DNA of 64,000 nucleotides, taken from contig CP016269.1 of assembly GCA_001880285.1 (NCBI GenBank), positions 1,498,501-1,562,500 on the forward strand. Direction: 5' to 3'. Both the position numbers and the translations under genes were made by a program. Shown here piece by piece: positions 5,353-32,931 of this stretch (its first letter is position 1; every line of letters begins with the position of its first letter). The stretch comes from Flavobacteriaceae bacterium UJ101. GTDB lineage: Bacteria; Bacteroidota; Bacteroidia; Flavobacteriales; UJ101. The notes beneath the pieces were generated by a model that saw only the letters and a program-made list of their open reading frames with translations, made no database searches and was not told the origin of the DNA.

Positions 5353-5377
5353 ACCCTTCTCAATAGAAGGGTTTTAG
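5353..5377 (+). terminator. Terminator after the UMP synthase-like gene
   Basis: ACCCTTCT and AGAAGGGT form an 8-bp stem around a CAAT loop, followed by TTTTAG on the plus strand. It lies between convergent genes and touches the stop codon of the response regulator. Confidence 0.7.
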
Positions 5378-5979
5378 TTGACAATTCCTAAATGCATGGC
5401 TTTTTTAATTAATCCGGCAGGACTTTTTACACCCATTTTAAAAAAGATATTTTTTCTATGGGTTTCTACGGTACGTTTACTTAAGAATAATTTTTCGGCA
5501 ATTTCTTCGTTTGTTAACTCTTGAGCGATCAATTGAACAATTTGTTTTTCACGTTTGCTTAAAATGTTTTTATTGAAAATATATTCTTCAATAGGTTGTT
5601 CGGTATAATTGAAATACGTTTTGTCTTCATTTACAATACCTCGAATAGCTTCTAAAACTTCTATTTTAGGAGTTTCTTTCAATAAGTAGCCTTGAATTCC
5701 TGTATAAGAATGCATATTTTGAAACATACTTAAAACCAACAATTTAATATGTGGGCTTTGTTTTTTTATAGCCTTAATCAGCTCTATACCATTCATTTCG
5801 GGCATAGCAATATCGGTAAGAATAATATCCGGAGTATTTAATTGGAGAAAATCGAGTAAAGCCGAAGCTGAAGTGGTTTGAAAAACAACATCGATATCAT
5901 CTTGTTTAGAAAGAACAGCTTCTAATCCGTCTAAAAACAATTGGTGATCATCAACTAGTGCAATTTGTATTTTTTTCAT
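5374..5979 (-). CDS. NarL/LuxR-type response regulator (system 1)
   Basis: The 201-residue protein has a receiver domain with acidic pocket Asp10-Asp11, phosphoacceptor Asp56 in ILTDIAMPEMNG and Lys in GYLLKE, then a LuxR-type helix-turn-helix at about 140-199 (LSKREKQIVQLIAQELTNEE onward). It should bind DNA as a dimer when phosphorylated. Its start overlaps the stop of the kinase gene by 4 bases (ATGA), so the two are translationally coupled. The nearby dyads at 7886-7901 and 10866-10881 have the 7-2-7 layout used by NarL-family regulators and are its most likely sites. It is closely similar to the regulator at 30445-31056. Confidence 0.95.
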   Translation of the reverse strand: MKKIQIALVDDHQLFLDGLEAVLSKQDDIDVVFQTTSASALLDFLQLNTPDIILTDIAMPEMNGIELIKAIKKQSPHIKLLVLSMFQNMHSYTGIQGYLLKETPKIEVLEAIRGIVNEDKTYFNYTEQPIEEYIFNKNILSKREKQIVQLIAQELTNEEIAEKLFLSKRTVETHRKNIFFKMGVKSPAGLIKKAMHLGIVN

Positions 5980-7868
5980 AGGTTTTGTGGTATGGTTAAT
6001 ACAATAGTGGTTCCGCTTTTAGGATGTGAATCTATTTCCCAATTTCCATTTAAAGCGTGTATACGTTCTTCTATATTGTGTAGCCCAATTCCTTTTTGAA
6101 GTAAAGATACATCAAACCCTTTTCCATTATCTTCATAAATGATGTATAAAAAAGTATCTCGTAAGGTGAAGCTAAGGAGAACTTGTGTGGCATGAGCATG
6201 TTTATAAGTATTATGAAATAATTCTTGAATAATTCGGTAGAGATGATGTTTTTGAAAAGAATTAAGTGTGTCTAAAACTTCAGAAGGAAAGAGGGTCATC
6301 TCAATATTGAAGATCTTCTTTTTTTCATATTGAATTTTTACTTCTGTTAAAAGCTCTTTTAAAGTATGTTCTTGAATATAATTGACACTTAAATTATGAG
6401 AAATAGAGCGTAATTCAGCAAAAGTATTTTCCAGTTTGTGGGTTACACTTCCTAATTCAGGGTGGTTAAGCTCATGGTTTAAATCTTCTAAATTTAATTT
6501 TAAACCCGCTAATTGAGCTCCAACACCATCATGAATTTCTTTGGCTAAGCGATTTCGTTCCTGATCTTGTCCTTTTAATAATGATTCAGCTTGTTCTAAT
6601 GCTTTTTCTTTTTCTAAACGTTGTACTTCCTTTTCATTTAATAGTTTTTGTGTTTTAACCCGGTTACGGTAGAATAACAATAATAAAAGCAAAGGAATTA
6701 CTAAGGCAACAGCACCGTATATAAATTGTTTTCGTTTGGAAGCTTCTAGTTCTTTTTCTTTAGTTAATAAACCAATTTGTTGGTCTTTCTTTTCTACTTC
6801 ATATTCTGTACGAACTTGAGCAAACTCTCGTTCTTTATCAATTTGAAATAAGCTGTCATTGAGTTCTTTATGTTTTGAAAAGTACGTGTAGGCTTTTTCA
6901 TAGTTTTTCATATCGAGAAAAAGTTGTGATATTTTATAATAAAGAATGGATTTGGTAGGGTCAGAAACTCTTTTTGAACTTGAATATTCTTCTGCTTTTT
7001 GATAATAAAATAAGGATTTTTTATATTGTTTTTTGTAGTTGTAGTATAAGGCAAGTAGACCATTATAAATAAAATAACGGTCATTTTCTTTTGAAGGTTG
7101 TATTAATCTATTGGCTCTTTCTAAATAATTATATGCTAGATTTAAATCTAAACTTTTTTCTTCTAAAAGAAGTGAAGCCATATTTAAATATAGCATAGAA
7201 AGTTGTTGATGATCATGAAGAGATGAAGCATATTTAATTCCTTTTTTATAATAATATAGGGCACTATCTTGATTTTGATTATTTCTAAAAAATTCTCCCA
7301 TTTTATTACAATTATCTATAATATTAATAGAATCATTAAGTAGAAAAGAATAGTTTAAAGCTTTGTTATAATGATAAAGGGTTTTTATAGAATCATTTTT
7401 AAGATTATGTAAATCTGCAATAAAACTATTCAGAAAGATTATTGATTTATTAAAATGATATTTTTCTGATAATTTTAGTGCTTTTTGATAAAAATTTAAA
7501 GCAGAAGTATAATTGTTAGTTTCTTTTTCTAAAAAACCTAACCTTTGTAAGCATATTTGAACCCCTCTACGAAAATTACTTTTATTTGAAAAAGAAAGAG
7601 CTTTAATTGTATTGTTTTTAGCTCTATTGATTTTTTTTTGTTCATAAAAAATATCACCTAAATTAAAGTAATATTTAGCTAATAGAGTGTCATTTTGTAA
7701 TTGATGTGCTTTTTTTAATCCTTTTTCTAAATAGAAATAAGAAGAATCCAAATTAGAAGATCGAGTTTGTTTTGATTGTTTTAAAAGAACTTCAGCTTCT
7801 TTTCTTAATGTTTGGGAATAAGTAAAAGAATATAAAAGAAAAAAGAATATAAAGCTGTTTTTTATCAT
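5976..7868 (-). CDS. TPR-repeat sensor histidine kinase (system 1)
   Basis: This 630-residue kinase begins with a signal peptide (FIFFFLLYSFTYSQ), continues with about 330 residues of tetratricopeptide repeats expected in the periplasm, crosses the membrane once near 381-401 (GAVALVIPLLLLLLFY), and has a coiled-coil linker before a HisKA_3 dimerisation domain. The phosphoacceptor is His446 in KEIHDGVGAQLAG; the N box is near NTYKHAHA and the G box is DNGKGFD. It should pass phosphate to the regulator it overlaps. The signal is unknown; TPR sensors usually bind proteins or peptides. It is divergent from the secreted-protein cluster beginning at 7954. Confidence 0.93.
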   Translation of the reverse strand: MIKNSFIFFFLLYSFTYSQTLRKEAEVLLKQSKQTRSSNLDSSYFYLEKGLKKAHQLQNDTLLAKYYFNLGDIFYEQKKINRAKNNTIKALSFSNKSNFRRGVQICLQRLGFLEKETNNYTSALNFYQKALKLSEKYHFNKSIIFLNSFIADLHNLKNDSIKTLYHYNKALNYSFLLNDSINIIDNCNKMGEFFRNNQNQDSALYYYKKGIKYASSLHDHQQLSMLYLNMASLLLEEKSLDLNLAYNYLERANRLIQPSKENDRYFIYNGLLALYYNYKKQYKKSLFYYQKAEEYSSSKRVSDPTKSILYYKISQLFLDMKNYEKAYTYFSKHKELNDSLFQIDKEREFAQVRTEYEVEKKDQQIGLLTKEKELEASKRKQFIYGAVALVIPLLLLLLFYRNRVKTQKLLNEKEVQRLEKEKALEQAESLLKGQDQERNRLAKEIHDGVGAQLAGLKLNLEDLNHELNHPELGSVTHKLENTFAELRSISHNLSVNYIQEHTLKELLTEVKIQYEKKKIFNIEMTLFPSEVLDTLNSFQKHHLYRIIQELFHNTYKHAHATQVLLSFTLRDTFLYIIYEDNGKGFDVSLLQKGIGLHNIEERIHALNGNWEIDSHPKSGTTIVLTIPQNL

Positions 7869-7885: not shown

Positions 7886-7901
7886 TACCCTCTAGATGGT
7901 A
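7886..7901. promoter_or_regulatory. Candidate response-regulator operator, copy 1
   Basis: TACCCTCTAGATGGTA is an imperfect dyad that splits into two 7-base half-sites (TACCCTC and, inverted, TACCATC) around two bases. It lies between the kinase gene and the secreted-protein cluster, ends 22 bases before a TACCTTTG -7 box, and sits where a missing -33 element would be, as expected for an activator site. A near copy occurs at 10866-10881. Confidence 0.5.
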
Positions 7902-8531: not shown

Positions 8532-9509
8532 ATGAAAAAAATAAATAGAATACTAATGAAAAAACAGTTAATGTATAGTCTTTTAATAGTATGTGGAATG
8601 TTACGTATTTTAGGACAAGAAATTACAGATCCAGCAGCTTTCCAAGCAATGTCAGGGACTACAACACTTTCTTCCAAAGATGGAGCAATTTACTTAAGTG
8701 GTTCATTTCCTAATGCACGATCTACAGCAATATATTCACAAAATACGAGCATTTATATTGAATTTAAGGCAGGGGATGATATAACTAAAGGAGAAAGAAT
8801 GCGTCAACATATTGGATTTACAAATGATGGTCCTTATGCTTATAGAGGTTTTTTATTACATAAAGATTCCAATCAAGTGGATCTAGTGGAGGGAAGTACT
8901 ACAATTCAAAATTTAGGTACATATAACCCAGGAGATATTTTTAGAATTGAAAAAAAGGATAATACTGTTTCGTATATCCAAAACGGAGTAGTTTTATTTG
9001 AAGAAGTGTTTTCTTTAAATGATTTTCGTATTGGAATTGCATCCTCAGATACCAATGGTTATATAGAAGGTATTAAGTTAGGGACTCCAACGGATTCTTT
9101 TTATTCTGTTTCAATGGAAGAAGCACGTATTAATAAATTAAAAGTAAATACCGATACACTACCCGATGGTTATCAAGTAGCTGTGAAGGGCGAAATGATT
9201 ATTGAAGGAATTATGATTAAGGATTTTACTTCATGGCCCGATTATGTTTTTGAGGAAAATTATCCGTTGAAAGACTTAAAAGTATTAGAAAAAGAAATAC
9301 AACATTTAGGCCATTTACCAAATGTACCTTCTGCTAAAAAAGTTTTAAAAGAAGGTGTTGATTTAGGTGACATGAATGTAATTCTACTTGAAAAGATTGA
9401 AGAACTTACTTTATACACGATTCAGCAACAAAAATTGTTTGAAAAACAACAAGAAGAATTGAATCAGTTAATGGATGAAATAGAAAAGAAAAATATTAAA
9501 AAACAATAA
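8532..9509 (+). CDS. Secreted modular protein: domain A plus coiled tail
   Basis: The 325-residue protein has a signal sequence (LMYSLLIVCGMLRILGQ), then a domain here called A (about 45-190: GAIYLSGSFPNAR, ERMRQHIGFTNDGPYAYRGF, PGDIFRIEK, FRIGIASSDTNGYIEGIK), which looks like a beta-sandwich binding module and is repeated in the 1227-residue protein at 10938. The tail (about 197-320) has the widespread Bacteroidota surface-protein ending WPDYVFEENYPLKDLK, HLPNVPSA and LLEKIEELTLYTIQQQK, finishing in a Glu/Lys/Gln coiled coil. The same tail ends the next gene. Only two bases separate it from that gene. The binding target is unknown. Confidence 0.8.
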   Translation: MKKINRILMKKQLMYSLLIVCGMLRILGQEITDPAAFQAMSGTTTLSSKDGAIYLSGSFPNARSTAIYSQNTSIYIEFKAGDDITKGERMRQHIGFTNDGPYAYRGFLLHKDSNQVDLVEGSTTIQNLGTYNPGDIFRIEKKDNTVSYIQNGVVLFEEVFSLNDFRIGIASSDTNGYIEGIKLGTPTDSFYSVSMEEARINKLKVNTDTLPDGYQVAVKGEMIIEGIMIKDFTSWPDYVFEENYPLKDLKVLEKEIQHLGHLPNVPSAKKVLKEGVDLGDMNVILLEKIEELTLYTIQQQKLFEKQQEELNQLMDEIEKKNIKKQ

Positions 9510-9511
9510 AA

Positions 9512-10801
9512 ATGAGGATTTTAACTCTTTTATGTATACTGTTTTTTGAAGCTTCTTTACTAGCTGATGAAAATGTAACTTGGTTTGAAACTACAGTCTC
9601 AAAAAATAGAATAATTAAAAATCAAAATAGTGATACTCAATCAACAGGAAGTAATAATTCGATTACGGTAGCTTATGCTCCTTGTCAAAGTACAACAGAT
9701 ATTGATAATGGTATTATCAAATTCAATTTAAATACGAATGAATTGCCTCCTTATCAATATACAATTGAAGGAACAAATAATGATTATAGTTTAACAGGTA
9801 TTTTAGAAAGTAAGATAGGAGAAGTAACCGATATACCAAATGGAACGTATACCGTGACTGTAAAAAGTATAACCGAATTAGACCGTAGTACCTTTCTTTT
9901 AAAAGATGTTTCCTACGATCAGAATGCTGATATGTATAAATCTGAACGAGGTTCTGTTTGGAATATGCGATTACAATCAGGTACACAAACTCCAATAATC
10001 AATCAAGGAAAAATTTCTTTTCAATATACTAGTTCTACTTATGGACGTCCTATTGTACACTTAACCAGTAGAACAAATTCAACACTTTATGCAAGACAAT
10101 GGGATCCAAATGAACATACTTGGCTTGGAGGAACTGATGAAATACAGGTACAGGAGAATAACACAACGGTTCATACAGTTCCTCATGTTGATCATAATAT
10201 CTATTCAATTGAGGTTACAGATAGTGTTCGTTATTTGGTCAATGATTCTGTAGTGTACACATCAACTCAAGAAGTACAACCTGATTATCGATTTACAGCT
10301 TCTCCTCATCAATATGGAAATCTGATTAATTTTAAAATAGTTACATACGGATCACAAATTGAAGAAAGTCAAATTACCGTTAATGCACCAAGTTGTGAAA
10401 CGATATCGTATGGATATCCTATAGAAATTGAAGAAGCGCGAATTAATCAAACAAAAATTAATACAGATAGTTTACCCACAGATTATAATTTGGCTGTCAA
10501 TGGTGAAATGATTATTGAAGGTATCTTGATTAAAGATTTCACCTATTGGCCAGATTATGTGTTTGAAAAAGATTATCCGTTAAAAGATTTAAAAATAGTA
10601 GAAAAGGAAATTCAAAATTTAGGACATTTGCCTGATGTACCCTCAAAAGAGTATGTTTTAAAACATGGAGTAGATGTAGGAGAAATGAAGGTAACATTAT
10701 TAGAGAAAATTGAAGAATTAACATTGTATATCATTCAACAGCAAAAAATATTAGATAAACAACAAAAACAAATTAATCAACTTAAGGAAATAGTAGAATA
10801 G
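9512..10801 (+). CDS. Secreted modular protein: domain B plus coiled tail
   Basis: The 429-residue protein has a signal sequence, then a region here called B (about 50-300). B starts with an SprB-like repeat (NGIIKFNL, YQYTIEG, IPNGTYTVTVKS) and continues with a second module (VWNMRLQSGTQ, GRPIVHLTSR, LYARQWDPNEHTWLG, FTASPHQYGNL). The same B region occurs in the 1227-residue protein at 10938. The C-terminus carries the WPDYVFEKDYPLKDLK and LLEKIEELTLYIIQQQK tail shared with the preceding gene. SprB repeats are known from the flavobacterial gliding adhesin, which suggests a cell-surface or matrix role. It is the last gene before a strong terminator. Confidence 0.8.
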   Translation: MRILTLLCILFFEASLLADENVTWFETTVSKNRIIKNQNSDTQSTGSNNSITVAYAPCQSTTDIDNGIIKFNLNTNELPPYQYTIEGTNNDYSLTGILESKIGEVTDIPNGTYTVTVKSITELDRSTFLLKDVSYDQNADMYKSERGSVWNMRLQSGTQTPIINQGKISFQYTSSTYGRPIVHLTSRTNSTLYARQWDPNEHTWLGGTDEIQVQENNTTVHTVPHVDHNIYSIEVTDSVRYLVNDSVVYTSTQEVQPDYRFTASPHQYGNLINFKIVTYGSQIEESQITVNAPSCETISYGYPIEIEEARINQTKINTDSLPTDYNLAVNGEMIIEGILIKDFTYWPDYVFEKDYPLKDLKIVEKEIQNLGHLPDVPSKEYVLKHGVDVGEMKVTLLEKIEELTLYIIQQQKILDKQQKQINQLKEIVE

Positions 10802-10821
10802 GAACTATGATTAAAATTTAA

Positions 10822-10857
10822 AAATCCATCCTGAAACTATTTCAGGATGGATTTTTT
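10822..10857 (+). terminator. Terminator of the 7954-10801 operon
   Basis: A 15-bp perfect stem (AAATCCATCCTGAAA with its complement, loop CTA) runs into six T residues. Confidence 0.9.
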
Positions 10858-10865
10858 ATGAAATA

Positions 10866-10881
10866 TACCCTATTGAGGGTA
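10866..10881. promoter_or_regulatory. Candidate response-regulator operator, copy 2
   Basis: TACCCTATTGAGGGTA is a dyad that reads as two 7-base half-sites (TACCCTA and, inverted, TACCCTC) around two bases, 56 bases before the ATG at 10938. It matches copy 1 in arrangement and in 12 of 16 positions. A degenerate -7 box, TGTTTTTG, follows at 10896-10903. It could instead be a weak hairpin, but lacks an immediate T tract. Confidence 0.5.
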
Positions 10882-10937
10882 TGTTTTTAATAAGATGTTT
10901 TTGAGAACTTTATAGAATAATTATAAAATTTAAAAAC

Positions 10938-13900
10938 ATGCAAAAATTTACTATTCTACTGTTCTTTTTATTGAGTACAGTTTTATTGGGTAGAGAATAT
11001 GATATGGTTGAAACCATTCCCATTTCTCAAAAAACGATTTTGAACTCTTTAGCAAATGAAGAGATTATTATAGATCCGAATCATTTTATTGCTTTATCAC
11101 CTACAACTTCCTTATCTCAAAAAGAGGGTTTAATTTATTTAAGTGGTGCTTTTTCGAATGCACGTACCAAGGAGTTGTATTCAAAAAGTAGTGATATATA
11201 TGTTGAATTTAAAGCAGGAGGTGATGTAGATAAAGGTATACGTATGCGTCAACATGTAGGATTTACGAATAATGGACCTTATTCCTATCGGGGGTTTTTA
11301 TTACATAAAGATTCTGATAGAGTAGATCTTTATTTTAATTGGGATGATGTTAGAGAAAATATTTCAACGTATAACCCAGGTGATATATTTAGGATAGAAA
11401 AGCTAGGAGATAAGGTTTATTATAAACAAAATGGAGTAATATTGTATGAAGAAACCTTTGTATTAAATGATTTTTTAATAGGAATAGCATCATCAGACCA
11501 AAATGGTTATATTGAGGGTATTAAAGTAGGAACACCAGTTGCTCCCATTACAGTAGAGAACCCTCCTTGTTCAACGGATGGAGGGATTATTAAATTTAAT
11601 TTGACAAGTGGAGAAGCTCCTTATCAATATACAATCAAAGGAGAAAATAATAGTTTTTCATTAAAAGGAGTTTTAAATGAAAAAATAGGGGAAGTAACAG
11701 GAATTCCAAATGGTAATTACCAAGTAAGTGTTCAAAGTATAAGTGAGATAGATCGTAATACGTTTTCATTAGTTAATGTAAGCTATAATGAAACTATAGA
11801 TACTTATACAAAGACTTCGGGTTCAGGTTGGAATATGCGTTTACAATCGGGAAATCAAACATCTAAAATAGAAAAAGGAATCCTTTCATTTAAATATACT
11901 GGTTCTAGTTATGGGCGTCCTATAGTTCATTTAACTAGTAGAGGAGGGGCCACACTTTATGCGAGGCAATGGGATCCGAATGAACATACGTGGCTTGGAG
12001 AAGGTAATGAAGCTTATGTGCAGGAGAATAATGCGACAGTTTATACAGTATCTCATAGTAATGATAATGAATATTCAATAGAAGTTACGGATAAAGTACG
12101 TTATTTAGTAAATGGAGAAGTAGTGTTTACCTCTACCCAAATTGTAAAGCCAGAGTATCGATTTACGGCATCACCTCATCAATATGGTAATTTAAAGGAA
12201 TTTAGAGTAATAAATTATGAAGGAGATATTGTACAAGAGAATGTTACAGTCAATGTTAAAAGCTGTGAAGAGTTAGAGGTTAAAGTTATAAGTCCTTTAT
12301 ATAAATTTGATACTCATAATCAGATTAATAGCTTAGGTATTTCGTATACTGAAATTGCTAAAAGTTTAATAGATGATAGTGGAAATAAATTTATAGATAA
12401 AGTAACAGATTATACGAAACAAACTGTAGTAGATGCACTACAAAATGGTAATTATTTTTATCATTTAATTAATACGGAACAAGGGTCTATGGATCAATTA
12501 TTTTTTGATGGTGCAGAGGATAATTATCCTATGACGGTTTTACAAGATGAATTGATTTCGTTTGGAATGTTATTAAAAAATAACACATCTGAAGTTCAAA
12601 CATATCATATTAATACCAATCTTCCTAGTACGGATAAAAATATTATTATAAGACGTGAGGCTAATATTACGGAATGGTGGAGTTTATATTCAATTGCTGG
12701 ACGAAATGATGATTCTAATATTAGAATTATAGGAGACCCTTTAACGATTGTATCTCATGAAATATTAGAACCTTTAGATACAAGATTTGATAGGTATGTA
12801 CACCCTGATCCTGAAAAAGGGATAGGAAGAAACTATATAAAGTTATACCCCAATGAGACTATTAAATTAGTTTTTGAATTTACAGGGGATTCTGATTTTT
12901 CAAACTCAGAGAATAATTATTTTGTAAAATTTGAAAATCAATCAATAGACAAATCTGTTTTAAATAAAGATCTTTCAATTAATTTGTTAACAAACGAATT
13001 ACCTAATATTAAAATACCTAATATTTCTTTTGACAATGGTAACCAAACAAGATCATGGCTGAATTATTATGATGGTTACTTTTATAATACAGAAGATGAT
13101 TCCAGTAGTGTATGGAATAATTTTGTCAGAACGTCAAAAAAAGCTCCAAGTTTTTATCCTCTTTTCAAAAAAAGATATAATTTAAACTCTACGCTATTAG
13201 GTAATGCTGAATTTAATTCTAATGGTATTCTTAATGAATTAAGAAAAAATATATCAGATAGCGATAAGTTTTTTTGGTTTACTCCAATCTCTTATATAAA
13301 TCAAGGTCAAGAAGGTATAAATGCTTATATAAATCGTTTAGATGAAATTTTAGTTCAAGCAGAACAAAATAGAAATGGATGGGGATATGAAAATTTTGGA
13401 TATGATATAACATTTGAAGAAATTAAGAATACAATATATATTTATCCTATTGATGAAATAAGTTTTCCTAACCCTAAAGAGTATCCTGAAGAATATGCAG
13501 ATTTTAAGTCTAGAATTTTACCATGGTATGGGAATTTATTAAAAGCATTAAAAGAAAACGGTTATAAAACTATACTTACATTTGGTTTAAATAGAGAATG
13601 GGAAATGAAAAATAATAATGAAGATTTAAATCTAAAATTAGAAACACTAGTTCCTCATTTAAATGTAGTTGTTGATGCAATGTTAGCCGGAAAACCAATA
13701 CATCAAGGTAAATTAAATGAATTACAACAAAATTTTAATTTTGAAATTTGGAATTATGATTCAGAACCAGCAAGAGGAAATGAAAATATTCTTCGCACAA
13801 AAACAAATAACCTAACATCTGTATTAGCTGGTAATATGGGATATAGTATATTTCGTTTTGAGGATTATGACAATGGAGATAGTGCATGGAGAGCTAGAGA

Positions 13901-14621
13901 TTTAGGTTTGGATGATAGTGGTAATCCTATTATAGGATTACATAGAGGTTTAATTTATTTAACAGATGTAACTACAGCCAAAATTAATGAGCATTGGAAT
14001 CCTTTGACTAAAGAATATAAAAATACAGGTAGAATAAGTCTATATTCGGGACGTCAAAATATTTGGTACTGGATGGCAACCTCAGCTCGTTTATTAGCTT
14101 ATAATGAATCAGTAAACTTAGCTAAAATGATTAAATACCTGCAAGAACTTGATAATAATACAGTTAATTCTAAATTAGAAGAGTATAAAACTAGAGTTAG
14201 TACAATTAACAGTGCTTCAAGAGCGGTAAAAGGTATTGGTTATTTAAATCAAAAACAATTAACTGATTTAAATACACTTTCAAATGAAATAAAGCAATTG
14301 TATGCTGCTCATTATCAGGAAAACACATCATCAAGAAGAGTGGAAGAAAAATCAAAAGAACTTCAGACATTTGAAAAACCAACTTCATTTACTATAGTTT
14401 ACCCAAATCCGACGAATGGAATGGTAAATGTAAAAGCAGAAAAAGATATTAAAGCATGGAAAATGGTGAGTATGTCAGGTAAAATGGTTGGACATGGAGA
14501 ATTTAAAGCTCCAAAACGTACTTTTGTTACTCATATTGGGAATCAATCAGGAGGTTTATATGTGATACAGATAATTTATACAGATGGAACCTCTGAGAGT
14601 AAAAAAGTTATGAAAAGATAA
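10938..14621 (+). CDS. Large T9SS-secreted multidomain protein (domains A and B, unknown central domain, CTD)
   Basis: The 1227-residue protein combines the pieces of its upstream neighbours: signal peptide; domain A (about 50-205, as in the 325-residue protein); domain B with SprB-like repeat (about 215-445, as in the 429-residue protein); a central region of about 680 residues; and a T9SS sorting domain (YPNPTNG near 1152 to the end). The central part contains LPWYGNLLKALKENGYKTIL, FEIWNYDSEPARG and IFRFEDYDNGDSAWRARD, which suggest a TIM-barrel-like hydrolase fold; I cannot assign a family. It has its own candidate operator and terminator. Its CTD segment KDIKAWKMVSMSG is identical to that of the protein at 37292. 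Confidence 0.85.
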   Translation: MQKFTILLFFLLSTVLLGREYDMVETIPISQKTILNSLANEEIIIDPNHFIALSPTTSLSQKEGLIYLSGAFSNARTKELYSKSSDIYVEFKAGGDVDKGIRMRQHVGFTNNGPYSYRGFLLHKDSDRVDLYFNWDDVRENISTYNPGDIFRIEKLGDKVYYKQNGVILYEETFVLNDFLIGIASSDQNGYIEGIKVGTPVAPITVENPPCSTDGGIIKFNLTSGEAPYQYTIKGENNSFSLKGVLNEKIGEVTGIPNGNYQVSVQSISEIDRNTFSLVNVSYNETIDTYTKTSGSGWNMRLQSGNQTSKIEKGILSFKYTGSSYGRPIVHLTSRGGATLYARQWDPNEHTWLGEGNEAYVQENNATVYTVSHSNDNEYSIEVTDKVRYLVNGEVVFTSTQIVKPEYRFTASPHQYGNLKEFRVINYEGDIVQENVTVNVKSCEELEVKVISPLYKFDTHNQINSLGISYTEIAKSLIDDSGNKFIDKVTDYTKQTVVDALQNGNYFYHLINTEQGSMDQLFFDGAEDNYPMTVLQDELISFGMLLKNNTSEVQTYHINTNLPSTDKNIIIRREANITEWWSLYSIAGRNDDSNIRIIGDPLTIVSHEILEPLDTRFDRYVHPDPEKGIGRNYIKLYPNETIKLVFEFTGDSDFSNSENNYFVKFENQSIDKSVLNKDLSINLLTNELPNIKIPNISFDNGNQTRSWLNYYDGYFYNTEDDSSSVWNNFVRTSKKAPSFYPLFKKRYNLNSTLLGNAEFNSNGILNELRKNISDSDKFFWFTPISYINQGQEGINAYINRLDEILVQAEQNRNGWGYENFGYDITFEEIKNTIYIYPIDEISFPNPKEYPEEYADFKSRILPWYGNLLKALKENGYKTILTFGLNREWEMKNNNEDLNLKLETLVPHLNVVVDAMLAGKPIHQGKLNELQQNFNFEIWNYDSEPARGNENILRTKTNNLTSVLAGNMGYSIFRFEDYDNGDSAWRARDLGLDDSGNPIIGLHRGLIYLTDVTTAKINEHWNPLTKEYKNTGRISLYSGRQNIWYWMATSARLLAYNESVNLAKMIKYLQELDNNTVNSKLEEYKTRVSTINSASRAVKGIGYLNQKQLTDLNTLSNEIKQLYAAHYQENTSSRRVEEKSKELQTFEKPTSFTIVYPNPTNGMVNVKAEKDIKAWKMVSMSGKMVGHGEFKAPKRTFVTHIGNQSGGLYVIQIIYTDGTSESKKVMKR

Positions 14622-30444: not shown

Positions 30445-31056
30445 TCACTTTATAATTCCTAGATGTAGCGCTCTTTTGATTAAACCGGCTGTATTTTTAG
30501 CACCTAATTTAAAAAGAATGTTTTTACGATGAGTTTGTACAGTTCGAAGACTAATAAACATTATTTTAGCTATTTCTTCATTGGTTAATTCTTTTGCTAT
30601 ATAATGAACAACTTCTTTTTCTCGCTTAGTTAAAATATCCTGAGAAAATATATATTCTTCAATAGGTTCTTGGGTATAATTTAAATAGGTTTTTCCATCA
30701 TATACAATACCTCGGATAGCTTCTATAACCTTTGATTGTGAAGTCTCTTTTAATAGATAACCATTAATTCCTTGGTAAGAATGCATGTTTTCAAACATAC
30801 TTAAGACAAGAATCTTAGTAGCTTTATTAAATTGCTTAATGGCTTTAATAAATTCAATTCCATTCATTTCAGGCATAGCAATATCCGTTATAATTAAATC
30901 AATAGAAGATGTGGTGTTTTGTATAAAATGAAGGGCCTCTTTTGCAGAAGATGTGGTATAAATGATTTCTATATCAGGTTCTCCTTCTAATATTGAAACC
31001 AAACCATCTAAAAATAATTGATGATCATCAATTAACAACAGTTTTATTTTTTTCAT
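30445..31056 (-). CDS. NarL/LuxR-type response regulator (system 2)
   Basis: The 203-residue protein is a paralogue of the regulator at 5374-5979, with which it shares long stretches such as DDHQLFLDGL, TDIAMPEMNGIE and the C-terminal helix-turn-helix pattern. Asp10-Asp11 and phosphoacceptor Asp58 are present. The recognition-helix region reads MFISLRTVQTHRKNILFKLG, against LFLSKRTVETHRKNIFFKMG in system 1, so the DNA targets may overlap or have diverged slightly. It lies 12 bases after its kinase gene. Confidence 0.95.
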   Translation of the reverse strand: MKKIKLLLIDDHQLFLDGLVSILEGEPDIEIIYTTSSAKEALHFIQNTTSSIDLIITDIAMPEMNGIEFIKAIKQFNKATKILVLSMFENMHSYQGINGYLLKETSQSKVIEAIRGIVYDGKTYLNYTQEPIEEYIFSQDILTKREKEVVHYIAKELTNEEIAKIMFISLRTVQTHRKNILFKLGAKNTAGLIKRALHLGIIK

Positions 31057-31068
31057 GTAAGTTATAAA

Positions 31069-32931
31069 TTAAACAGGAATATTTATTACAATTATAGATC
31101 CTCTACTCAGTTGAGAATCAATACTTAATTCGCCATTTAATGATTCAACCCTTTCTTCAATATTTTGTAACCCAATTCCTTTTGGTTGTAAAGATACATT
31201 AAATCCTTTTCCATTATCTTCAAAAAATAAGTTAATATTATCTTTTTGTTTTGTTATAGATATACTGACTTCGGTAGCTGAAGCATGTTTACGAGTATTA
31301 TTTAAAAGTTCTTGTATAATCCGATATAAATGATGTTTTTGGATTTGATTAATGAATTCAAAATCCTCTTTTGGAAAAAGAGATAGTTCAATAGAAAAAG
31401 AGGACTGTTTTTGATAATATTGCTTTAATTTAGTTAATAGTTCAGCTAAGGAATGATCTTGGATATAATTGATACTTAAATTATGAGAAATAGACCGTAA
31501 TTCTGAAAAAGAGTTTTCTAGCTTAGAAGAAATAGATTTTAAGTTTTTATCTTGATATTTTTGATTGATTTTTTCTAAATTTAGTTTTAATCCAGCTAAT
31601 TGAGCTCCTACACCATCGTGAATTTCTTTAGCAATACGATTCCGTTCTTGATCTTGTCCTTTTAATAAAGCATTGGCTTGTTCTAGCTCTTTTTCTTTTT
31701 CCAAACGTTCTATTTCTTGTTTTTTCTTTAAATTTTGGGTCTTAGAACGATACCAAAAGACTATTCCTAAAAAGACTAATAAACCTAAAGAACCTAAAAT
31801 AATTTGTTTTTTACGTAGTGCCTCAACTTCTTTTTCTTTATTTAAAAGTTCTATTTGTTGATCTTTATTATCTACTTCATATTCGGTACGAATTCTATCA
31901 AATTCGGCAGTTTTTTCTTTATAATATAGAATAGAATCAAGATGATACATTTTTTTAAAATATTTTAATGATTTTTTGTAATCACCTATTTTTTCTTCAA
32001 GTTTACTAGACCTTAGATAAAGCATTAATTCTTGTCTTTTGGAAACTTGATCATTTATATGTTTTTCGGATAATTCATATGCCTTTTTAGCTTTATTATA
32101 TTGTTTTAATTGAAGAAAAAGATTCCCTTTAAGTAAGTATAGCATGAAAAGGAAATCTTTATCTTTTGGTAGGTTTTGTTGTTCTAATTGTTTTAAATAA
32201 TTATGAATGTATACTAATGTATTAGGTTTATTTAATTTTATAAGAGTATTTATATAATTAATATGTATGGAGGGCTCTTTTATTTTTGGATCTAAATCAA
32301 TTGCTTTTTGAAAGAAAAACTGAGCACTATCATATTTTTTTGTAAGAAAAAATACACTACCTATAGCTTTATTAAGTTTTATTTGTTTAACAGAATCATT
32401 AAATTGAATATTATTTTTTGCCTTTTTATAATGGTATAAACTTTCTTTAAAATTACTTTGTAAAGCATTTAATTCTCCTATTTTAGTATGAATTAGAAAA
32501 AATGATCCTACCTTATGTTGATGATAAATATTTAATGCTTTTTGAAAATAGTATAAGGCTTTAGTATAATTTTTTTGATCTTTCATTACTAAACCGAGAT
32601 CTTCATAACAATATTCTACTCCTTCATAAAAGTGACCTCTTTTAGCATGAAATAATGCTTTTTGAAGAAAGTATTCATTAGAATCGTAAAGTTTATGATT
32701 ATAATGATGAATGTATAAGTTATAATAAGCACGAGTCAATAAGGTATCGTTGGGTATTTTTGATGCTTTTTTAATCGCTTGGTATAAAAAATTTGTGCTA
32801 ATAGATAATGAATCCGATTGATTAGCTTTTTCAATTAAATTAAAGGCATCTTTGTTTAAGTTGCTTTGAGCACTAATAACAGTATAAAAGCATAATAAGA
32901 AAACTATTTTCCATATAGATTTTTGCAGCAT
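31069..32931 (-). CDS. TPR-repeat sensor histidine kinase (system 2)
   Basis: The 620-residue kinase has a signal peptide (IVFLLCFYTVISAQ), a periplasmic TPR region of roughly 330 residues, a transmembrane helix near 375-394 (IILGSLGLLVFLGIVFW), a linker and a HisKA_3 kinase with His438 in KEIHDGVGAQLAG, N box NTRKHASA and G box DNGKGFN. The kinase half is much more like its paralogue at 5976-7868 than the TPR half, which suggests that the two sense different signals but use the same chemistry. Unlike system 1 it has no secreted-protein cluster beside it. Confidence 0.93.
   Translation of the reverse strand: MLQKSIWKIVFLLCFYTVISAQSNLNKDAFNLIEKANQSDSLSISTNFLYQAIKKASKIPNDTLLTRAYYNLYIHHYNHKLYDSNEYFLQKALFHAKRGHFYEGVEYCYEDLGLVMKDQKNYTKALYYFQKALNIYHQHKVGSFFLIHTKIGELNALQSNFKESLYHYKKAKNNIQFNDSVKQIKLNKAIGSVFFLTKKYDSAQFFFQKAIDLDPKIKEPSIHINYINTLIKLNKPNTLVYIHNYLKQLEQQNLPKDKDFLFMLYLLKGNLFLQLKQYNKAKKAYELSEKHINDQVSKRQELMLYLRSSKLEEKIGDYKKSLKYFKKMYHLDSILYYKEKTAEFDRIRTEYEVDNKDQQIELLNKEKEVEALRKKQIILGSLGLLVFLGIVFWYRSKTQNLKKKQEIERLEKEKELEQANALLKGQDQERNRIAKEIHDGVGAQLAGLKLNLEKINQKYQDKNLKSISSKLENSFSELRSISHNLSINYIQDHSLAELLTKLKQYYQKQSSFSIELSLFPKEDFEFINQIQKHHLYRIIQELLNNTRKHASATEVSISITKQKDNINLFFEDNGKGFNVSLQPKGIGLQNIEERVESLNGELSIDSQLSRGSIIVINIPV

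Follow-up and report, generated by a model that had tools for sequence, protein, structure and literature searches.

Three neighbouring genes of the 64,000-nt window analysed here (CP016269.1 positions 1,498,501 to 1,562,500; position 1 is the first letter of the window) encode proteins put together from shared modules. In the open reading frame list they lie on the plus strand at 8532-9509 (P325), 9512-10801 (P429) and 10938-14621 (P1227). Domain A occurs in P325 and P1227, domain B in P429 and P1227, and a common C-terminal tail in P325 and P429. Taking the evidence as a whole, we lean with moderate confidence towards the view that these are exported, probably surface-displayed binding proteins assembled from common modules, and that A and B moved together.

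The three module pairs are true homologues. Residues 31-221 of P325 align with 44-236 of P1227 (domain A, BLASTP E 3e-67), residues 51-298 of P429 with 204-446 of P1227 (domain B, E 8e-100) and residues 191-318 of P325 with 302-429 of P429 (tail, E 2e-61). The corresponding Smith-Waterman scores were 545, 799 and 492, against maxima of 78, 86 and 66 in 200 shuffles. The sequence-only reading, which had proposed this distribution of modules from the letters of the window, thus survives the shuffled alignments, in which the copies of A and B could have proved no more alike than unrelated proteins. Identity of the cores in codon alignments is 64.8% of 159 codons for A, 63.4% of 243 for B and 68.8% of 128 for the tail, and at the DNA level the module pairs are 71-75% identical, which makes them old pairs as opposed to recent copies. 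The boundaries between modules are sharp, with A reaching to about residue 203 of P1227 and B starting at 204, and with the tail of P325 following directly after A. P1227, in which A and B are joined in that order, lacks the tail and ends instead in a T9SS type A sorting domain, which agrees with the different C-terminus reported for it earlier. Judged from these alignments, module shuffling in the broad sense has taken place, as an event of an ordinary kind. The earlier description of the locus as direct evidence of exchange or fusion between neighbours holds in that the modules are homologous and differently combined, but the wording is too strong, because the tail is common in the order, the A-B adjacency may be ancestral and no outgroup orients the event.

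Upstream of P325 lies P188 (7954-8520, plus strand), a small protein with a T9SS type A sorting domain (TIGR04183, E 3.6e-07, 30.1 bits). The gaps between P188 and P325 and between P325 and P429 measure 11 and 2 bases, respectively, and a terminator-like inverted repeat with a T run (10820-10857, plus strand; read by eye, with no program score) closes the three genes, while P1227 has an upstream region of its own, separate from P188-P325-P429. P1227 carries its sorting domain at 14397-14618 (TIGR04183, 27.7 bits, and PF18962), so that both proteins score above the TIGR04183 cut-off of 23. TIGR04183 and Pfam scans gave no such match in P325 and P429, which counts against the surface display that we propose for them. 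Weak Pfam matches to SlyX, Sigma54_activ_2 and Use1 (E 0.1 to 0.3) were dropped.

Domain A (JR1; 8622-9101 in P325 and 11067-11546 in P1227) is predicted, with moderate confidence, to be a CBM66-like, concanavalin-type jelly roll. In an AF2 model of A and B, computed from an alignment of three window rows, nearly all 10-residue blocks of A had pLDDT values of 67-84. The modelled A matched the CBM66 structure 4b1m with Z 15.8 and rmsd 3.0 over 150 aligned residues; the best matches were CBM66 chains, and other ConA-like lectin, SPRY and glucanase folds came close behind. The likeness to these proteins lies in the predicted fold, whereas their sequence identity to A is only 10%.

Domain B looks like an SprB-like, Ig-type repeat followed by a second, divergent jelly roll (JR2). 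Its first 75 residues resemble an SprB repeat: the copy in P1227 (11547-11756) matches Pfam with E 0.034 and 14.2 bits, below the gathering score of 28 (PF13573), and the half in P429 (9662-9886) is assigned by homology to that copy. A foreign SprB profile alone gave no significant match to this half (hhalign 15.7%). The rest of B (JR2; 9887-10405 in P429 and 11757-12275 in P1227) is matched by hhalign to jelly-roll units from two foreign proteins (74.6%, E 2.6e-5). A direct comparison of JR1 with JR2 was not significant (hhalign 1.3%; score reached by 16 to 71 of 500 shuffles). The B part of the AF2 model mostly has pLDDT values below 50, and the structure-match lists (VIA-align, Foldseek) say nothing about B, since they are dominated by A; the fold suggested for B thus comes from profile comparisons. 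As in the SprB-repeat surface proteins (PF13573) of Bacteroidota, an SprB-like repeat lies here between other beta-rich modules, with the JR-SprB alternation also seen in L062 and L063 and with a T9SS sorting domain on P1227. The difference is that the single SprB-like unit scores under the Pfam cut-off and is joined to a body that belongs to no known family.

An A+B profile matched 6 of 395 genomes of the class, our own genome included. Of the other five, two (L062 and L063) yielded large proteins that are alternating JR/SprB arrays with Pfam SprB well above the cut-off, and the remaining three matches comprise jelly rolls without Pfam SprB (L060), one jelly roll (L061) and an SprB-like stretch (L054). 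When nine JR-SprB units of L062 and L063 were made into a profile, it ran in register over the A/B boundary of P1227 with 54.2 bits, against 38.6 for the jelly roll alone. On P325 the same profile reaches 41.4 bits, covering the jelly roll and a few residues past its end, and among the 63 open frames of the window only P325, P429 and P1227 gave a sequence E below 0.01 with it. In view of this in-register match to foreign arrays, the joined A-B state may be the ancestral one, from which the small proteins derive. The A-B order thus appears to be an old kind of arrangement, although descent from one array is not proven thereby. The existence of such arrays speaks for the possibility that two tail genes, after duplication, each lost the complementary part of an ancestral JR1-SprB-JR2 string, which P1227 kept whole, and the equal divergence of A and B described below would fit it too; but no JR1-SprB-JR2-tail gene was found in our searches, and the foreign arrays are distant and may be of independent origin. 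We regard this course of events as quite possible, if somewhat short of an even chance.

Relatives outside these arrays are scarce. Among 395 genomes of the order the A+B profile matched only our own genome and one other (L012, an SprB-type protein). At this similarity A and B occur in no further gene of our genome, and the matches elsewhere in the sampled genomes are all distant. The genome contigs, viral contigs and phages searched held no close relatives of A, B or the body of P1227, and among the matches listed in the plasmid search there was one record, matching at the T9SS domain only. Since our genome is the sole representative in the family search and matches elsewhere are distant, no genome at hand orients the event.

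The dN values of A and B are practically the same (0.292 and 0.293), and that of the tail is 0.20; the dS values are 1.33, 0.96 and 1.41 for A, B and tail, with synonymous sites near saturation and overlapping bootstrap pS intervals for all three. In the trees the two A copies are sisters (support 0.999), as are the two JR2 copies (1.0). One event for both domains is the simplest reading of the equal dN, and A and B were probably redistributed together in one old event, in so far as sequence divergence is a guide. The A and B versions are carried by only three genes, and for the direction and number of events the equal divergence is the only indication. Had A and B been captured independently, at different times and by different anchors, the three combinations would have unrelated histories. 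The heads of tail genes do vary widely across the order, as such captures would lead one to expect, but the equal divergence of the pairs, the strong support for each as sisters and the position of all copies within 6 kb make this unlikely. A single event might also have been a fusion between neighbours, as in the sequence-only reading: P325 and P429 would have been duplicated and joined, the former losing its tail and the latter its leader, and the product would have become attached to a P813-like gene (P813 is described below). The P325-P429 gene order is collinear with A-B in P1227, the junctions are clean and the body occurs alone in P813. Collinearity, on the other hand, is an even chance, and the JR-SprB adjacency, already present in foreign arrays, need not have been created here. 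Homology between the mature leaders of P429 and P1227 was rejected (p 0.91), which deprives a common N-terminus of support, and we consider this route doubtful, though a little less so than independent capture. We therefore retain a single old event for A and B together, in which either an ancestral JR1-SprB-JR2 string would have been divided between two tail genes or two adjacent tail genes would have been joined to the N-terminal end of a P813-like gene. P325 (JR1-tail) and P429 (SprB-JR2-tail) are tandem genes that came from local duplication of a tail-bearing gene, and P1227 carries JR1-SprB-JR2 ahead of a separate body and the T9SS sorting domain.

The tail (9102-9485 in P325 and 10415-10798 in P429) is widespread: 79 of 296 genomes of the order, our own among them, have a match to its profile at E 1e-6. 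In a tree of 70 tails those of P325 and P429 are sisters (support 1.0), apart from the other tails of the genome, which indicates that the pair came from local duplication. The surroundings of the tail were surveyed in 40 regions around tail matches of other genomes, mostly the best scoring and not a random sample, with 20 control regions about 100 kb away in the same genomes; L076 to L078, picked for their T9SS neighbours, were excluded from the counts. With the window included, tandem same-strand tail genes formed 21 adjacent pairs in 13 loci, and in 20 of these pairs the tails were more alike than the heads (medians 76.9% versus 28.6%). A constant tail with variable heads is a general pattern. 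A T9SS-domain gene was found in 20 of the 40 tail regions, which were mostly the best scoring, versus 2 of the 20 controls (Fisher p 0.0038); it was on the same strand and adjoining in 16 of the 40, and shorter than 220 aa in 10 of these. The window conforms to this pattern, with P188 before P325. The tail core and the tandem arrays with variable heads are also features of VGIGT-repeat proteins of Flavobacteriales that bear the tail, for which no family name was found. P325 and P429 differ from them in having JR and SprB-like heads; the five other tail genes of our genome have VGIGT-type repeats. The tail profile gave no credible match among PDB sequences or solved structures. In sequence searches for comparison with the Peptidase S74 chaperone, the tail proteins had neither a Pfam S74 match nor a credible PDB-sequence match. 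The literature searched yielded no paper on the tail proteins, which is no proof of absence.

Several further observations were made around tail genes. Two sets of proteins of 150-161 aa (L083, L103, L104, L116 and L094, L098, L110, L114) directly adjoin tail genes in several genomes; these proteins have a T9SS-like end and, close to their start, the motif 'D.AGNQ'. In our own genome, two apparently identical 447-aa tail proteins are encoded in opposite orientation at 987 kb and 2130 kb (L022 1935-3278 and L023 1068-2411). Each of these genes adjoins, by eye, an RHS-like gene, and the two could mediate a 1.1 Mb inversion. The 447-aa protein also matches Pfam Shufflon_N (E 1.5e-09).

The body of P1227 (12285-14387, plus strand; about 700 residues, no known family) has a paralogue, P813, elsewhere in the genome (28% identity, E 7.4e-18), in which the body comes with an apparent signal peptide and a T9SS domain and without A or B. 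In the order, three genomes other than our own had body matches, and the one match inspected was a sensor kinase. In the phylum, 89 of 395 genomes gave matches to the body profile, almost all of them located at the T9SS domain; two longer matches lie, by eye, in beta-lactamase-like proteins. Neither P1227 nor P813 matched a Pfam GH family at E <= 1, and the structure model of the body (pLDDT 33) was unusable. A glycosidase (GH123-like) nature of the body is not claimed. Upstream of P813 the genome encodes a 1469-aa protein (L030 10393-14802) with about ten nearly identical repeats of ~90 residues, in which several Pfam matches look like repeat artefacts.

Divergent from the module operon lies a two-component system on the minus strand (5374-7868), identified from open frames, profiles and its paralogue: a LuxR-type response regulator (5374-5979) and a TPR sensor histidine kinase (5976-7868). 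The regulator and kinase profiles, which include this pair, score 375 and 1104 bits on it, and its domain types were assigned by Pfam on a second TPR-kinase/LuxR-regulator pair of the window (30445-32931; 43% identity for the kinase, 63% for the regulator). A palindromic box, TACCCT-CTAG-ATGGTA (7886-7901), lies in the gap that separates the kinase from P188, 52 bp ahead of the start of the latter, and another, TACCCT-ATTG-AGGGTA (10866-10881), lies 56 bp before P1227; no box was found near the second pair. An 18-base version of the box was found at 13 places of the genome with up to 2 mismatches, versus 4 for the reversed control. At least five places of our genome are perfect over the 12 fixed positions of the consensus TACC[CA]T-N4-A[GT]GGTA, which is a lower bound, as only part of the genome was read; about 0.7 would be expected in the whole genome by base composition. 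Three of the five precede, by 52-68 bp, genes whose products have a T9SS end (P188, P1227 and a 1364-aa protein of L074), one is inside a gene and one is 133 bp before an unrelated gene. At L074 a tail gene is followed by the box and then by the 1364-aa protein, which has four JR matches and a T9SS-like end (sorting domain 26.0 bits in Pfam versus a cut-off of 27). As two of the three supporting boxes defined the motif, the independent support comes from L074 and from L078. In the latter, a locus of another family, a kinase and a regulator face a small T9SS gene, followed by a tail gene and larger T9SS genes; the box there is perfect and is 37 bp away from each of the two divergent starts.

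These placements hint that P188-P325-P429 and P1227 share an on/off switch acting through the putative box, and through this palindrome both transcription units may be under the control of the divergent two-component system. No perfect box was present in 972,271 bases of 60 other loci, at our own tail loci L021, L022 and L024, or at P813. The window kinase shares only 30% identity with that of L078 and is closer to its own paralogues, so by that measure the common layout of the two loci does not reflect simple orthology. Outside the sorting domain, homology between P188 and the 204-aa protein of L078 was not supported (p 0.67). Such a two-component system as a general companion of tail genes was rejected, being present at 0 of 40 sampled tail loci. 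A paralogue of the kinase/regulator pair adjoins a tail gene at L024. The box resembles the operators of NarL-type two-component systems in its inverted TACC-type half-sites near a LuxR-type regulator, and differs from them in spacing and half-site. Elsewhere in the genome (562962-569001 and 2824780-2828812, opposite strands) one and the same 19-base match comes back mostly every 669 bases, a spacing suggestive of large tandem repeats.

Module shuffling is well known in bacterial adhesins, and this locus is a compact example, with A, B, tail and body each found apart and joined within one genome. We suggest that the locus supplies a small group of exported proteins, assembled from common modules, which would bind glycans or other ligands and are probably displayed at the surface. 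P1227, as a T9SS protein, would display its body and binding modules on the cell surface, and P325 and P429 would present the same binding modules in a second form, bearing the tail. It is a long shot that the locus represents an unnamed conserved display system, in which the TPR-kinase/LuxR pair, via the TACC[CA]T-N4-A[GT]GGTA boxes, jointly controls T9SS modular lectins and constant-tail/variable-head proteins, with one set of binding modules in two physical forms and tandem tail genes as a reservoir of heads moving into anchored proteins. The regulatory lead is the part of the finding that could become more: if the box is a real operator, it would tie the common constant-tail class to a specific two-component system and to display at the surface by the T9SS.
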